Source: Campylobacteraceae bacterium
GTDB taxonomy: Bacteria > Campylobacterota > Campylobacteria > Campylobacterales > Arcobacteraceae
Assembly: GCA_018662405.1 (NCBI GenBank)
Contig: JABJGE010000038.1
Coordinates: 1 to 43,655 of the forward strand
Length of the DNA stretch: 43,655 nt
Reading direction: 5' to 3'
The notes under the pieces are model-generated. The model was not told the DNA's origin, ran no database searches, and saw only the letters and a program-made list of their open reading frames with translations. The position numbers and the translations under genes are program-made. Positions 18,794-36,275 of the stretch are shown here, in pieces (position 1 is the stretch's first letter; every line of letters starts with the position of its first letter).

Positions 18794-20128
18794 TTATAAG
18801 TAAAACCGCCAATAAATTAAAGCCATACATGTAATAGTAATTATTCCTAATACATTAAATACAAATCCAATACTTGCCATATCTTTTACCTTTACAACTC
18901 CACTACTCATAGCTATTGCATTTGGTGGAGTTGCAATAGGAAGCATAAAGGCATAACTAGCACAGATAGTTGCAACCATAAGTAATAGAGTTATATCAAT
19001 ATTACTAGCTTGTGCAAGAGAATATATAATTGGTAAAGCAATTGAGATAAGTGCTGTATTTGATGTAATTTCTGTAGTAAATGTAATTAATGTTGCAGTA
19101 ATTAGTATTAGAAATAATGTAGAAAATGATGTAATTGCTAATAATCGTGTTGCAATTTCATTTGCCAAACCCGTACTTGAAAATGCCATAGCAATAGAAA
19201 ATCCTGCTCCAAATAAAAATATAATCTCATAAGGAATTTTTTTTGTATCTTCCCATTCTAAAAAGCCAATATTTGGAATAAACATTAATAATCCAAAGCC
19301 AAGAAGTATACCTTTTTCATTTAATCCTAATCCAGAATAATATGGCTCAATAGATGAATTTAATAATAGTACTACTACTAATCCTAACAATATATATATT
19401 AATCTTTTTTGTTCTTTATTTACGACTGACGTATCAGTAATATCAAAATCAAACTTTATTTTATTAACCCCTATAGATAAAATATATGGCATTATTAATA
19501 ACATTACTGCTGCCAGAGGTACAGTTAAAGCCATCCATTTAATAAATGAAATACTTTGGAGTGCATTTGTTTCCAAGAATCCTAATAAAAGTAAATTTGG
19601 AGCTGTTCCTATAGGTGTAATAATTCCACCCATACTAGCTCCATAAGCAACAGCTAAAACCAATCTCATTTTTAATTTTAGATCATCAGTAAGATAAAGT
19701 GCTATTGGCACTAAAAGTAATGCAGTAGTTGTATTTGCAATAAGTGAACTTAATAAAGCTGCAGTAATAGATAATGAGTACATAACACCTCTAGGCGTTG
19801 AAGGGAATATTGCTAATAATTTATGTGCTATAACTTTATGTAAATCTATTTTTTGTGTAGCTATTGCTAACATAAATCCACCTAAAAATAAAAATATAAT
19901 AGATTTAGAATAGTTTGATGTTGTGGCGTTCGTTGAGGCAATATCAAATATTGGAAATAATAATATAGGAAGTAATGATACAACACCTAATGGTAAGCCT
20001 TCATTAGTCCATAATGTAACTAAAAATACAACTATTGATATTAATAATGAATGTTGAATATTAAAACCTAAGTTGGCTATAAAAAAAGTGATAAATGATA
20101 GTAAAAATGATATAAAAATTTTATTCAA
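18794..20128 (-). CDS. SLC13/DASS family anion (dicarboxylate- or sulfate-type) symporter
   Basis: The protein is polytopic, with the duplicated SNT substrate/sodium motifs of the family: IANTTTALLLVPIAL in the first half and ITSNTALISIALPI in the second. It also has the C-terminal SLC13 signature region YAFMLPIATPPNAIAMSSG. These carriers import dicarboxylates, sulfate or related anions with sodium. The substrate is not readable here. Start choice: I favour the TTG at 20128 (444 residues), which follows AAGGA by 7 nt. ATG at 20158 (454 residues) has no ribosome site and lies a few bases after a TATAAT box. It lies downstream of a short transcript unit that follows the two-component operon, so regulation by that system is plausible. 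Confidence 0.86.
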   Translation of the reverse strand: MNKIFISFLLSFITFFIANLGFNIQHSLLISIVVFLVTLWTNEGLPLGVVSLLPILLFPIFDIASTNATTSNYSKSIIFLFLGGFMLAIATQKIDLHKVIAHKLLAIFPSTPRGVMYSLSITAALLSSLIANTTTALLLVPIALYLTDDLKLKMRLVLAVAYGASMGGIITPIGTAPNLLLLGFLETNALQSISFIKWMALTVPLAAVMLLIMPYILSIGVNKIKFDFDITDTSVVNKEQKRLIYILLGLVVVLLLNSSIEPYYSGLGLNEKGILLGFGLLMFIPNIGFLEWEDTKKIPYEIIFLFGAGFSIAMAFSSTGLANEIATRLLAITSFSTLFLILITATLITFTTEITSNTALISIALPIIYSLAQASNIDITLLLMVATICASYAFMLPIATPPNAIAMSSGVVKVKDMASIGFVFNVLGIITITCMALIYWRFYL

Positions 20129-20170
20129 TGTAAATTCCTTGTATGGTAAATTTAGCATAAGTATTCTTAT

Positions 20171-20176
20171 ATTATA
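20171..20176 (-). promoter_or_regulatory. Candidate -10 box (TATAAT) of the SLC13 transporter
   Basis: A minus-strand TATAAT sits just after the T-run of the intrinsic terminator. It would start transcription near 20164, giving a leader of about 36 nt to the TTG at 20128. It offers the transporter a promoter of its own, separate from any read-through past the terminator. Confidence 0.4.
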
Positions 20177-20181
20177 CAAAT

Positions 20182-20220
20182 AAAAAAAGAGCTGCCCAAG
20201 GAAGTAAGCAACTCTTTTTT
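20182..20220 (-). terminator. Intrinsic terminator after the two-component operon / putative small RNA
   Basis: On the minus strand, arms AGAGTTGC (20215-20208) and GCAGCTCT (20195-20188) form an 8-bp stem with one G-U pair and a 12-nt loop UUACUUCCUUGG, followed by at least six U. A-runs precede it, so it may also stop plus-strand transcripts, but with one mismatch in that direction. Confidence 0.8.
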
Positions 20221-20252
20221 TATTTTATTGGTTTCGCGCCGTTAAATTTCAT
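20183..20252 (-). ncRNA. Putative small RNA or attenuated leader controlled by the adjacent response regulator
   Basis: A TATAAT at 20264-20259 predicts a start near 20252, and the strong intrinsic terminator ends the transcript near 20183, about 70 nt. The promoter carries the same pair of 11-bp repeats at the same 5-nt distance from -10 as the response regulator promoter. The RNA would contain an unusual GGCGCG run for this AT-rich genome. The terminator loop UUACUUCCUUGG is complementary to Shine-Dalgarno sequences, like the C/U-rich terminator loop that H. pylori RepG uses for targeting. It also encodes a 10-codon ORF (MKFNGAKPIK) beginning at the predicted first base. Alternatives are a leader peptide with attenuation of the SLC13 gene, or simply the tail of the kinase mRNA. 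The elements are seen. The small RNA itself is inference. Confidence 0.42.
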
Positions 20253-20258
20253 AGTGTA

Positions 20259-20291
20259 ATTATAAAAGATGAAAATGAAATGAGAATGAAA
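20259..20291 (-). promoter_or_regulatory. Response-regulator-type promoter: two 11-bp direct repeats plus -10, site 2
   Basis: On the minus strand, TTTCATTCTCA (20291-20281) is followed at once by TTTCATTTTCA (20280-20270), 10 of 11 bases identical. Then come 5 nt and TATAAT (20264-20259). The 11-bp period is that of tandem sites for OmpR/PhoB-family regulators, and the repeats cover the -35 position, as expected for an activator. The first repeat begins within a few bases of the kinase stop codon. Confidence 0.6.
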
Positions 20292-20293
20292 TA

Positions 20294-21631
20294 CTAAAAT
20301 AGTATTTCAATTTTTGTACCTTTTTGCTCTTCTGATGATATTTTCATATCACCATTATGAAGAAATACACTATTTTGGACAATACTAAGACCCAATCCAA
20401 AGCCTTTTACTTTCTTATTTCTTGAAGGGTCTACTCTATAAAATCTTTTGGTAATTTTATTTAAATGCTTTTCTTCCATACCTATACCAGTATCCTCAAT
20501 AATAAAATGAATATTATCATCTTCATAAAGAGAAATATTAATATTTGTATTCTCTTTGGAATATTTAATTGCATTATCTATTAAATTTGAAAATACAGTT
20601 GCAATAAGAACAGAATTTGCATTCATCTGTATAGGATTAAGTTTTTCTATATTTAATTTAATATTTTTGATTTTTACTTGGTTTTTAAATTTATCTATAG
20701 TATTTAATAAAATACTATCTAAACTAATCACATCAAAAGTTTGTTCAATATTTTCTTTTGTATATTTTGTAAGTAAGAGTAAATTATCTACTATTTCAGT
20801 TATTGTTCGAGCTTCATTATCTATTGTTTTTAAACTTTTTTCATAATATTTAGGATCTCTTATTTTATTTAGAGTAATTTCTACTTCACCTCTAATTACT
20901 GTAAGTGGTGTTTTTAATTCATGAGAAACATCACTATTAAATTGTTCTAAATGTTCTACACCATCTTTAAGTCTAATAATCATTTTATTAAAGGAATCTA
21001 CTAGTTCTTTAATCTCATCATCATATTTAGGTTGTGGAATCTCTTTTGAAAAGTTATTAACATATATTTCATTTGCAGTACTTGTAATATCTTTAATAGA
21101 TCTTAAAATTTTATCAACTAGCCTACTTGCTAACAATAGTAATAATATAAATAATACCGGTTCTAAAATTATCAATATTTGTTTTATTTGCTTAAATTCT
21201 TTAGTTATCTCTTCATCAACATTGTATTGATAAAATAAAATTGCACCTTTAAATGGATTTGATACTCTTAAAATATACATACCATTTAAACTATTATCTC
21301 TATTAAATACAAAGAAAGAATCATCTTTTTTTATAAATTCTAAATAGTTATCAAATTCTACTTTACCTTTTTTAAATATTATTTTATTTTCTTTTACAAT
21401 AGCAACATCCAAAGTTTTTAATTCTTCTGCTTCAAATAGTTTATCTATAGATACATTATTAATAATTTTTTTATTAATAAATACTGCTTTATCATATAAT
21501 TTATTTTGAATACTTAGTTTTGTGTTTTGTTCAAGAAAGTAATATAAAGCCCAATTAAAAAGAAATAGAGTTATTAGCGTTGATAAAGCAAACCAAAATA
21601 ATACTTTTGTTTTAAGACTATTAAACTTCAA
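20294..21631 (-). CDS. Sensor histidine kinase of an OmpR-class two-component system
   Basis: The 445-residue kinase has a first membrane helix at about 11-33, an extracytoplasmic sensor of about 115 residues, a second helix at about 150-168, and a HAMP domain to about 220. The dimerisation/phosphoacceptor motif is FNSDVSHELKTPLTVIRGEVEI, with the histidine near 237. The ATPase domain shows N-box FSNLIDNAIKYSKEN, DTGIGM and GFGLGLSIVQ. The periplasmic part resembles no sensor domain I can name. The start is TTG, 7 nt after AGGA, and overlaps the response regulator gene by 11 bp, so the pair is translationally coupled. The stimulus is unknown. The linked anion transporter hints at, but does not prove, a link to its substrate. 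Confidence 0.92.
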   Translation of the reverse strand: MKFNSLKTKVLFWFALSTLITLFLFNWALYYFLEQNTKLSIQNKLYDKAVFINKKIINNVSIDKLFEAEELKTLDVAIVKENKIIFKKGKVEFDNYLEFIKKDDSFFVFNRDNSLNGMYILRVSNPFKGAILFYQYNVDEEITKEFKQIKQILIILEPVLFILLLLLASRLVDKILRSIKDITSTANEIYVNNFSKEIPQPKYDDEIKELVDSFNKMIIRLKDGVEHLEQFNSDVSHELKTPLTVIRGEVEITLNKIRDPKYYEKSLKTIDNEARTITEIVDNLLLLTKYTKENIEQTFDVISLDSILLNTIDKFKNQVKIKNIKLNIEKLNPIQMNANSVLIATVFSNLIDNAIKYSKENTNINISLYEDDNIHFIIEDTGIGMEEKHLNKITKRFYRVDPSRNKKVKGFGLGLSIVQNSVFLHNGDMKISSEEQKGTKIEILF

Positions 21632-22277
21632 CTTTGTATCCTAAACCCCTAGAACTTGAAATAAATTCTTTTCCTATTTTCTTCCTAAGGTTATAAATTG
21701 TTACTTGGATTACATTACTATTAATGTAGTCATCATAATTCCATAATTGATCTTCAATCATAATATTTGATACTGGTGTATTTTTATGCTTAATCAGAAA
21801 TAATAGTAGTTCATATTCTTTTTGAGTTAATACTAAAGGTTCATTATCTTTACTTACAACTTTTGTATTTATATCTATTATTAAATTTTTAATATGTATT
21901 GTATTATCACTTTGAGATAGTGATCTTCTATATAGTGCTTGAACCCTTGCATTTAATTCTTTAAAACTAAATGGTTTACTCAAGTAGTCATCAGCTCCAA
22001 TATTTAAAGCTGATACTTTATCATCAATTTCACTTTTAGCAGTAAGCATGATTGTAGGAGTTGATATTTTTTGATTTCTAAGAGTAGATAGTATTTCCAT
22101 ACCATCTTTCATAGGGAGCATCCAGTCTAATATGATAAGATCATAAGTATTGACTGTGGCTAAGTATTCGCCATCTTCTCCATTTGTAGCAGTATCAATA
22201 ATATATCCATCTTCTTCAAAACCTCGTTTTAAAAAAGATAAAATATTTTCATCATCTTCAATGATAAGAATTTTCAT
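21621..22277 (-). CDS. OmpR/PhoB-family response regulator
   Basis: The 218-residue regulator has a receiver domain (1-118) with EDD at 7-9, the phosphoacceptor Asp51 in LDWMLP, and the conserved Lys in LSKPFSFKEL near 101. A winged-helix trans_reg_C domain follows (about 125-218, LTQKEYELLLFLIKHKNTPVSNIMIEDQLW ... VIQVTIYNLRKKIG). Such dimers bind tandem 11-bp half-sites head to tail. Exactly that arrangement is found in its own promoter and again after the kinase gene. The ATG follows AGGA by 7 nt. The kinase gene overlaps its end. Confidence 0.95.
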   Translation of the reverse strand: MKILIIEDDENILSFLKRGFEEDGYIIDTATNGEDGEYLATVNTYDLIILDWMLPMKDGMEILSTLRNQKISTPTIMLTAKSEIDDKVSALNIGADDYLSKPFSFKELNARVQALYRRSLSQSDNTIHIKNLIIDINTKVVSKDNEPLVLTQKEYELLLFLIKHKNTPVSNIMIEDQLWNYDDYINSNVIQVTIYNLRKKIGKEFISSSRGLGYKVEV

Positions 22278-22301: not shown

Positions 22302-22334
22302 ATTCTAGTCAATCAAAATGAAATAAGAATGAAG
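22302..22334 (-). promoter_or_regulatory. Response-regulator-type promoter: two 11-bp direct repeats plus -10, site 1 (autoregulatory)
   Basis: On the minus strand, CTTCATTCTTA (22334-22324) and TTTCATTTTGA (22323-22313) are adjacent 11-bp repeats. Five nt later comes TAGAAT (22307-22302), then the response regulator ATG at 22277. Sequence, period and distance to -10 match site 2 at 20259-20291. Positive autoregulation by the encoded OmpR-family protein is the simplest reading. Confidence 0.6.
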
Positions 22335-22335
22335 A

Positions 22336-24201
22336 CTAGTCTCTTCTTCTACGACTTCCATCACGACCACCGTCTCGACCTCGTCCTCCGCCATCACGAT
22401 CTCCTCGACCTCGACCACCATCACGACTTCTTCCTCGACCACCGTCTCGATCTCCTCGGCCTCTACCACCATCACGACTTCTTCCTCGACCACCGTCTCG
22501 ACCTCGTCCTCCGCCGTCACGATCACCTCGACCTCTTCCTCTTGGTTCATTTGCTGCTTCACCAGGTATTGCATCTTTAAGATCTAATCTTTTACCTGAT
22601 ACCATTACATTTACTAAAATATCTTTCTTTTCATCAGATAAGTTATCTGGTAAATCAACAGTTGAAAAACTACTATAAATAGCAATTTTAGCTATATCAT
22701 TTGAATCAATCTTAGCTTCATTTGCAATAGCACCTACTAGGTTACCTGGCTTAACTCTATCTTTTTCACCTACAGAAACTCTATATCTAGCAAAACCATC
22801 TCTAATTGCTGGCTCACTAAATTCTCTAGGCTCACCTCTTCCACCTCTGTCTCCGCCATTATTATCATAATCAACTTTTTGTTCTTTAAAGTCTTTTAAT
22901 CTTAAAGGATCACCTTTTCTAGCAATTTTAACTAACGCTGCAGCAATCTCTTCTGCTGGAACATTATGTTCATTTTGGTATGATTCAATAATTTGAGTAT
23001 AGTATTCTAAACCTTCTTGTGCTAATTCATCAGTGATTTGCTGTTTAAATTTAGCAACTCTTGTATTATTAACATCTTCTGTTGATGGCATTTCCATTCT
23101 ATCAATTGGTTTTTTAGTAGCTCTTTCAATCATTCTTAAAAGATTTCTCTCTCTTGGAGATACAAAAAGAATCGCCTCACCTTTTTTACCAGCACGACCT
23201 GTTCTACCAATTCTATGTACATAAGACTCAGTATCATATGGAATATCATAGTTAATTACATGTGAAATTCTATTAATATCAAGCCCACGAGCAACAATAT
23301 CTGTACCAATTAAGATATCTAATTTACCTTTTTTTAATTGATTTACAGTTTTTTCTCTTTGTGCTTGATTCATATCACCATTAAGTCCAGCTGCTGCATA
23401 ACCTCTAGCATTTAGTTTATCTTGAAGCTCTAAAGTCATTGATTTTGTTCTTACAAAAATAATAATTCCATCGTAATCTTCAACTTCTAAAATTCTTGTA
23501 AGTGCATCAACTTTATGTAATCCACTTACCATCCAGAATCTTTGTCTGATTGTTTCTGCTGTAGTAACTTTCATTTTAATAATTACTTCTGCTGGATCAT
23601 TTAAATATCTTTGAGTAATTTTTTTAATTGCTGTTGGCATTGTTGCACTAAATAATGCAATTTGTCTATCCTCAGGAGTATGCTTTAATACCCATTCAAC
23701 ATCATCAAGGAATCCCATATTAAGCATCTCATCTGCTTCATCAAGTACCATAGTTTTAAGTTCATCAATTACTAATGTACCTTTTTTAATATGATCCATA
23801 ACTCGCCCTGGAGTTCCTACTATTACTTGTGGATTTCTCTTAAGTCCTCTTAGTTGAATACCATAATCTTGACCACCATATATTGGTAATACATGGAAAC
23901 CATTCATATGTTTTGAATAACCTTGGAAAGATTCTGCAACTTGTATTGCAAGTTCTCTTGTTGGTGCAAGTACTAATACTTGTGGTTTTTTAATTTTTAA
24001 ATCAATTCTTGAAAGAATTGGTAATGCGAATGCTGCTGTTTTACCTGTACCAGTTTGTGCTTGCCCTAATACATCACGACCATCTAATACATGAGGAATC
24101 ATTCCTGCTTGAATTGGAGATGGAGAATCATATCCTACTTCTTCAATTGCTTTTAATACATCAGGAGCTAATCCTAATTCGCTAAATTTTATATCTGTCA
24201 A
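22336..24201 (-). CDS. deaD: DEAD-box RNA helicase with RGG-rich repeat tail (DeaD/CsdA type)
   Basis: The 621-residue helicase carries the Q motif (FSELGLAPDVLKAIEEVGYDSPSPIQ), motif I AQTGTGKT (48-55), motif II DEAD near 153-156, SAT, and the C-terminal RGLDINRISHVINYD and HRIGRTGRAG. A DbpA/CsdA-like RNA-binding domain follows (around 478-550, YRVSVGEKDRVKPGNLVGAIANEA). The last 70 or so residues are made only of Arg, Gly, Asp and a few Ser. This RGG/RDGG tail is coded by GC-rich repeats. DeaD proteins unwind RNA in ribosome assembly and mRNA decay, especially in the cold. The start is TTG, with AAAAGGT upstream. The protein is cytosolic. The tail probably adds nonspecific RNA binding. Confidence 0.95.
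   Translation of the reverse strand: MTDIKFSELGLAPDVLKAIEEVGYDSPSPIQAGMIPHVLDGRDVLGQAQTGTGKTAAFALPILSRIDLKIKKPQVLVLAPTRELAIQVAESFQGYSKHMNGFHVLPIYGGQDYGIQLRGLKRNPQVIVGTPGRVMDHIKKGTLVIDELKTMVLDEADEMLNMGFLDDVEWVLKHTPEDRQIALFSATMPTAIKKITQRYLNDPAEVIIKMKVTTAETIRQRFWMVSGLHKVDALTRILEVEDYDGIIIFVRTKSMTLELQDKLNARGYAAAGLNGDMNQAQREKTVNQLKKGKLDILIGTDIVARGLDINRISHVINYDIPYDTESYVHRIGRTGRAGKKGEAILFVSPRERNLLRMIERATKKPIDRMEMPSTEDVNNTRVAKFKQQITDELAQEGLEYYTQIIESYQNEHNVPAEEIAAALVKIARKGDPLRLKDFKEQKVDYDNNGGDRGGRGEPREFSEPAIRDGFARYRVSVGEKDRVKPGNLVGAIANEAKIDSNDIAKIAIYSSFSTVDLPDNLSDEKKDILVNVMVSGKRLDLKDAIPGEAANEPRGRGRGDRDGGGRGRDGGRGRSRDGGRGRGDRDGGRGRSRDGGRGRGDRDGGGRGRDGGRDGSRRRRD
22345..22560 (-). repeat. GC-rich imperfect tandem repeats encoding the RGG/RDGG tail of DeaD
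   Basis: A 51-bp unit (17 residues, around GRGRSRDGGRGRGDRDG) is seen at 22414-22464 and again from 22465, with degenerate copies on both sides. GC content is far above that of the surrounding sequence, and all frames are open here on both strands, which produces spurious ORFs. Such repeats can change length by slippage or recombination. Confidence 0.8.
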
Positions 24202-36223: not shown

Positions 36224-36275
36224 ATGACTTCCTTGTCTCTAATTTTAGATATTTTATCCAAATCACACTTTAGAT

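Follow-up and report, generated by a model that had tools for sequence, protein, structure and literature searches.

A predicted small RNA of Arcobacteraceae, linked to a PmrA-like two-component system, with a conserved anti-Shine-Dalgarno motif in its terminator loop

In Campylobacter jejuni, RNase III processes the small RNA CJnc190 from a longer precursor. CJnc190, which also has an antisense partner, uses a C/U-rich loop to pair with the ptmG ribosome-binding site and so blocks translation (PMC8687705). RepG of Helicobacter pylori is encoded by a stand-alone gene beside the response-regulator gene hp1043, and the C/U-rich loop of its terminator serves as the seed, directed at a run of G rather than at a ribosome site; according to its authors, it has no homologue outside Helicobacter, Arcobacter included (PMC8295292). 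Pairing with ribosome-binding sites through UC-rich anti-Shine-Dalgarno regions is also described for the tandem NmsRA and NmsRB of Neisseria, an unrelated lineage, which are made of three stem-loops and stand under stringent-response control (PMC5362039), and an anti-Shine-Dalgarno loop motif, longer than the one discussed below, marks SmelA075 and SmelA099, the CCUCCUCCC-loop RNAs of the Rhizobiales, which belong to another phylum and occur in many copies per genome with variable stems arranged in three to four hairpins (PMC3927594). For the Arcobacteraceae, no description of a small RNA was found in the open-licence literature searched, nor is the kinase-linked RNA presented here described in the literature examined on Arcobacter small RNAs with a terminator; for Arcobacter sp. 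L, PMC6429828 refers to intergenic candidates confined to Arcobacter, without naming them.

The window analysed here, the whole stretch of 43,655 nucleotides, carries a comparable arrangement on its minus strand. The original prediction had placed a promoter with the repeats of a two-component system, followed by a strong intrinsic terminator, between a sensor kinase gene and an SLC13 transporter gene, and this order is confirmed: the stop codon of the kinase gene, at which the promoter of the RNA begins, is followed by TTTCATTCTCATTTCATTTTCA, a short spacer, TATAAT, some 30 nt of predicted transcript and a strong hairpin with a U tail. The features referred to below are the following.

22313..22333, minus strand: second copy of the box, TTCATTCTTATTTCATTTTGA, before the response-regulator gene, suggesting autoregulation
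21621..22277, minus strand: OmpR-type response regulator gene; nearest NCBIfam model PmrA, below cut-off
20294..21631, minus strand: sensor histidine kinase gene, with HAMP, HisKA and HATPase domain matches
20270..20291, minus strand: putative regulator box of two direct 11-bp repeats, TTTCATTCTCA-TTTCATTTTCA, substituting for a -35 element
20259..20264, minus strand: -10 hexamer TATAAT, just 3' of the box
20180..20252, minus strand: predicted small RNA of ~73 nt, from covariance model and fold, with its putative start at or near 20252
20241..20252, minus strand: conserved 5' motif AUGAAAUUUAAC, predicted unpaired (ACGAAAUUUAAC in most relatives)
20182..20221, minus strand: intrinsic terminator hairpin AAAAAAAGAGUUGC / UUACUUCCUUGG / GCAGCUCUUUUUUU, with a 14-bp stem and a U tail
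20196..20207, minus strand: terminator loop UUACUUCCUUGG, with the invariant core UCCUU (20198-20202) as proposed seed
20171-20176, minus strand: TATAAT of the SLC13 transporter gene, after the terminator of the RNA
18794..20158, minus strand: SLC13/DASS-type anion symporter gene, start uncertain (ATG near 20158 or TTG near 20125)
36227..36235, minus strand: candidate target site CAAGGAAGT before yajC, complementary to the loop over 9 nt

The predicted 73-mer folds at -21.2 kcal/mol, against -10.6 kcal/mol for shuffled sequences (z -4.06), and none of 200 shuffles folded equally well. The hairpin at 20182-20221 escapes a terminator scan because loops longer than 8 nt are not considered there, and a search of the locus against Rfam at a relaxed threshold returned 15 weak matches, every one below the gathering score. 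The C/U-rich loop of the original prediction is present, but its length of 12 nt was too generous: the minimum-energy fold pairs UUA with UGG inside the loop and leaves about 6 nt (CUUCCU) predicted open, with which the partition function agrees; in the window, the probability that the last U of UCCUU is unpaired is 0.18. The 5' motif of the window RNA is predicted to be unpaired.

Perfect matches to the repeat pattern number two in the window, one before the RNA and one before the response-regulator gene, versus 0.19 expected, and these remain the only ones in the whole genome of 1.31 Mb; with two mismatches two more sites are found, the same number as for a reversed control. Judged by this box search, the RNA would be the regulator's only evident output in its genome apart from its own operon. 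Against the PmrA equivalog of NCBIfam the response regulator scores 207.4 bits, short of the curated cut-off of 330, and the sensor kinase, which is nearest to heavy-metal kinases, also stays under the cut-off. No box is visible before the response-regulator gene in two relatives that carry the RNA (G011 and G096), and autoregulation is therefore not general. A long repetitive tail rich in Arg, Gly and Asp forms the end of the DEAD-box helicase gene that precedes the regulator (window 22336-22560).

To assess whether the element recurs, a covariance model (R1) was built from seven relatives, with the window sequence left out. R1 finds 20178-20264 of the window, the -10 hexamer included, at 46.1 bits (E 6.4e-6 in 44 kb), the next window match reaching 21.7 bits, and the 46.1-bit match is the only hit in the window's genome. 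Across 104 genomes of the family, R1 matched 11 places in seven genomes at E ≤0.05, and the matches listed for 398 genomes across the order came from three of them, G000 (the window's own genome), G013 and G205, the other bearers not appearing in that listing. The match in G079:C8 was rejected for lacking the box and the UCCUU in its loop, and the one in G205 for lacking the box and resembling coding sequence. A second model (R2), built from the ten accepted members, returned 14 matches in 14 chosen genomes, namely the same ten and four weak places (two in G079, one in G078 and G112:C1), which have neither the box nor a UCCUU loop and were also rejected. The ten members lie in six of the 104 family genomes (G000, G011, G013, G027, G096 and G112); all come from one family, and at least two of the genomes are metagenome assemblies. 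When 60 relatives were searched at the DNA level, long matches in G011 and G027 spanned the repeats, the -10, the 5' end and the hairpin, and a match in G013 spanned the promoter and 5' end; the G013 hairpin and the entire G096 arrangement were read directly from the sequence.

Five members stand directly 3' of an orthologous kinase gene (in the window, G011, G013, G027 and G096), the kinase proteins of G011 and G013 being 63% and 62% identical to that of the window; the G027 assembly breaks the kinase adjacent to the RNA. The other five are stand-alone copies away from the kinase, in unrelated intergenic places: G011:C5, G027:C286 (found via the model) and three in G112:C68, two of them found by box search and the third via the model, with none of the G112 RNAs beside the kinase of that genome. 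The recurrence of the same RNA in relatives, in some of them in several copies, makes it look like a real regulator. Its own promoter and its own terminator are kept as one unit among the members: the box, the 5' GAAAUUU motif and the UCCUU loop are each found in all ten, and the spacer between the 21-mer box and the -10 is 6 nt long in all members but one, where it is 5 nt. Near these copies, a further box and -10 with the hairpin AATAGTG/CACTATT, which lacks UCCUU, stand at ~8490 of G112:C68, about 110 nt before a true copy, and may represent a decayed or diverged sibling. At G011:C10:37517, a near-perfect box and TATAAT precede a different terminated transcript of ~100 nt with UUUCCUU mid-way, which may be another small RNA under this regulator's control. 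Another genus shows, at G079:C8:47972-48048 and G078:C24:14829-14907, a TATAAT, ~35 nt and a strong hairpin with a loop around UUUUUGCGACC; these two elements are also similar over 70 nt upstream and make a candidate for an unrelated small RNA.

Conservation within the RNA is uneven. Mean identity among the ten members is 0.97 in the 5' motif (13 columns), 0.72 in the linker, and 0.78 and 0.81 in the stem arms, and the conservation of the UCCUU seed exceeds that of stem and linker. The loop does not vary freely among relatives, UCCUU being kept in 10/10 while stem and linker change, whereas only 3 of 409 terminator-like control hairpins have UCCUU within the loop; these controls came from sampled DNA of G000, G013 and G011 by a permissive scan that also takes in hairpins inside genes, and one of the three positives is the RNA itself. 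The covariation analysis proposed at the outset bears out a stem that changes by compensation: eight of 12 pairs changed on both sides in the ten sequences, a figure reached by none of 500 shuffles, in an alignment that was itself fitted to the structure. In this alignment 93.6% of the cells are paired, and sliding the partners lowers every measure. Because the alignment is structure-fitted and any terminator keeps its stem, the compensation speaks for the hairpin and not for a function.

The hairpin lies right behind the kinase gene and must also end the transcript of the regulator-kinase operon, and it could be that this is all it does, the promoter-like bases being incidental or serving the transporter. 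In this AT-rich genome, promoter-like sites do not outnumber those in shuffles (61 vs 65.8). This reading is nevertheless unlikely, given that the five copies away from any kinase keep the box, the -10, the 5' motif and the loop, that the spacing from box to -10 is nearly fixed, and that UCCUU marks every member's loop but hardly any control hairpin. A leader or attenuator of the SLC13 transporter, in which the hairpin would stop polymerase pending a signal or the loop would mask the CAAGGAA of the transporter, had been raised as the alternative in the original prediction; the SLC13 gene is indeed the next one downstream on the same strand, and its CAAGGAA can pair with the loop over 7 nt. The gene after the RNA differs in relatives, however, being RibD-like in G011, an opposite-strand dehydrogenase-like gene in G013 (both named by eye) and an opposite-strand porin gene with a Campylo_MOMP match in G096, and together with the stand-alone copies in unrelated places this removes the attenuator for the family. 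A 163-nt fold contains no competing antiterminator structure, and a separate TATAAT for the transporter follows the terminator, all of which leaves this alternative unsupported and very unlikely for the window. An 18-nt stretch before the SLC13 gene (AAGAATACTTATGCTAAA, window 20150-20175) recurs before an unrelated gene in G022.

Two further readings concern what the locus might produce. An ATG exactly at the predicted RNA start (20252) opens the frame MKFNGAKPIK-stop, which could be read as a tiny leaderless protein; this codon is ACG in eight and CCG in one of the nine other members, so that the ten-codon frame does not represent a conserved gene. The linker, which would code for the peptide, is not conserved either, and such a protein is extremely unlikely. 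The RNA might instead act on a protein, for example with its opposite strand as a CsrA-binding decoy or with the sense RNA binding some other protein. The opposite strand of every loop reads AAGGA, which is close to the CsrA motif, and several stems have a T run on both sides, but the box, the -10 and the 5' motif point to the sense strand in all ten members and an unsystematic look noticed no shared upstream element for the opposite strand; we regard this reading as highly improbable. The locus is best read, in our view, as a small RNA gene under the neighbouring regulator with a C/U-rich terminator loop, as originally proposed, with a predicted transcript from 20252 to 20180.

This small RNA shares with CJnc190 the phylum, the absence of Hfq and a C/U-rich loop; unlike in CJnc190, the loop is part of a terminator, and the gene stands alone behind a two-component system. 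The two are likened by mode and not by sequence. With RepG it has in common the stand-alone gene beside a response-regulator gene and the C/U-rich terminator loop, so that RepG, cited originally as a precedent in the phylum, holds as one for the mode of action only, its authors having reported no homologue beyond Helicobacter; the complement of the window loop, CCAAGGAAGUAA, is not the G-run that RepG targets. Within the open-licence literature searched, the ten members would form an undescribed small RNA family of a known kind, that of CJnc190 and RepG. Hfq was not found in any of the six RNA genomes, the same search being positive in 5/14 control genomes.

The two-component system itself resembles PmrA-type regulators linked to EptA, in that the best NCBIfam match of the response regulator is PmrA and the box stands before eptA in kinase relatives; it differs in that the regulator stays below the PmrA cut-off and EptA_B_N was not found in 5/6 RNA genomes (G000, G013, G027, G096 and G112, with completeness from 99% down to 61%). 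Related kinases, at E 1e-90 or better, occur in 14 of the 104 family genomes. In a kinase tree of 12 of these 14 rows (G114 was left out by a motif filter and G121 as a fragment), the kinases of the six RNA genomes, represented for G027 and G112 by kinases not adjacent to the RNA, form one clade with support 100/99 against G005, G120, G125, G078 and G079. In kinase relatives without the RNA the box stands before other genes, including genes with EptA_B_N matches in G005, G120 and G125 and an EptA-like gene in G121 that was recognised from its sequence. These EptA-like genes adjoin the related two-component system, and in some of the four genomes the 11-bp repeats also precede a small exported-protein gene, an arrangement that suggests a PmrA-like regulon in Arcobacteraceae. 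A search for EptA_B_N in 12 genomes found it in six, among them G011, in which the RNA is present and a box-bearing gene also matches EptA_B_N. The box positions suggest that an RNA has taken the place of an enzyme as the regulator's output.

The original prediction named yajC and a PAS gene as targets. The 9-nt match of yajC to the loop is correct (CAAGGAAGT at 36235-36227), and AAGGAAG is present before the PAS gene, at 18738-18732, one base off the place first given. Both are weak targets: 9-nt matches to the loop complement number three in the window, the RNA locus itself included, versus 1.5 expected under a Markov null, and target pairing alone is therefore not above chance. In the window's genome, AAGGAAG lies 2-12 nt before an ATG in 30 cases, versus 22 for the reversed pattern; of these, 14 are followed by ORFs of 80 aa or more, the PAS gene being one, and within this set yajC gives the strongest pairing with the 12-nt loop (-13.5 kcal/mol). 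Among sampled starts, those pairing over at least 8 nt with the loop of their own genome were 0/66 in G000, 2/45 in G013 and 6/60 in G011; yajC is not in this count because ORFs under 120 aa were left out. Starts with CAAGGAA[AG] gave 17 rows in G000, 9 in G013 and 12 in G096, where one gene is listed twice. Of these, G000 and G013 share yajC, and G013 and G096 share a major-porin-like protein (27% identical) and a small unknown protein. All three lists contain porin-like proteins with CAAGGAA starts, which would fit an envelope regulator; no porin enrichment is claimed because the lists also contain many housekeeping genes.

The pairing of yajC with the loop extends over 9 nt in the window and 8 nt in G013. 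Its leader reads CAAGG in G000 and G013, where the loops have CCUUG, and AAAGG in G011, G027 and G112, where the loops have CCUUU; yajC was not found in G096, and in six genomes without the RNA it always has AAAGG. The yajC ribosome site may thus co-vary with the G/U difference of the loop in five RNA genomes, which is suggestive only, because independent changes are few, yajC was selected from a single window and the predicted loop structure closes some of the nine positions that would pair. The anti-Shine-Dalgarno core of 5-6 nt is generic, and targets therefore cannot be named.

Taken together, we consider it probable that 20252-20180 on the minus strand is the gene for a two-component-controlled, Hfq-independent, trans-acting small RNA that blocks AAGGA ribosome-binding sites. 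As the position and conservation of the repeats suggest, the neighbouring PmrA-like response regulator would bind the two 11-bp repeats and start transcription, and RNA polymerase, judging by sequence and fold, would stop ~73 nt later at the hairpin. The loop core UCCUU, a copy of the anti-Shine-Dalgarno sequence of the ribosome, would then pair with AAGGA of selected mRNAs, and pairing at their ribosome-binding sites would block translation without Hfq; to the 5' GAAAUUUAAC stretch a probable role in specificity or stability may tentatively be assigned. With an activator driving a repressing small RNA, the two-component system would therefore gain a repressing arm.

Little work exists on small RNAs of Campylobacterota beyond Helicobacter and Campylobacter, and the genomes with this one apparently lack Hfq. 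The family offers a compact, testable case, with a predicted strand and ends, a candidate regulator, a seed of one motif and natural variants. It also points to a shift in the visible output of a two-component system, from the eptA enzyme gene in relatives to an RNA. It is possible, though we lean against it at present, that a system related to those found beside genes for the lipid A-modifying EptA, with the box in front of these genes, has undergone a rewiring in which a small multi-copy RNA family replaced an enzyme as the conserved output, and that in the window's reduced 1.3-Mb genome the sensor acts almost only via an anti-Shine-Dalgarno RNA, without Hfq. If so, an envelope signal would be passed directly into translation control, with porins and YajC as candidate targets.
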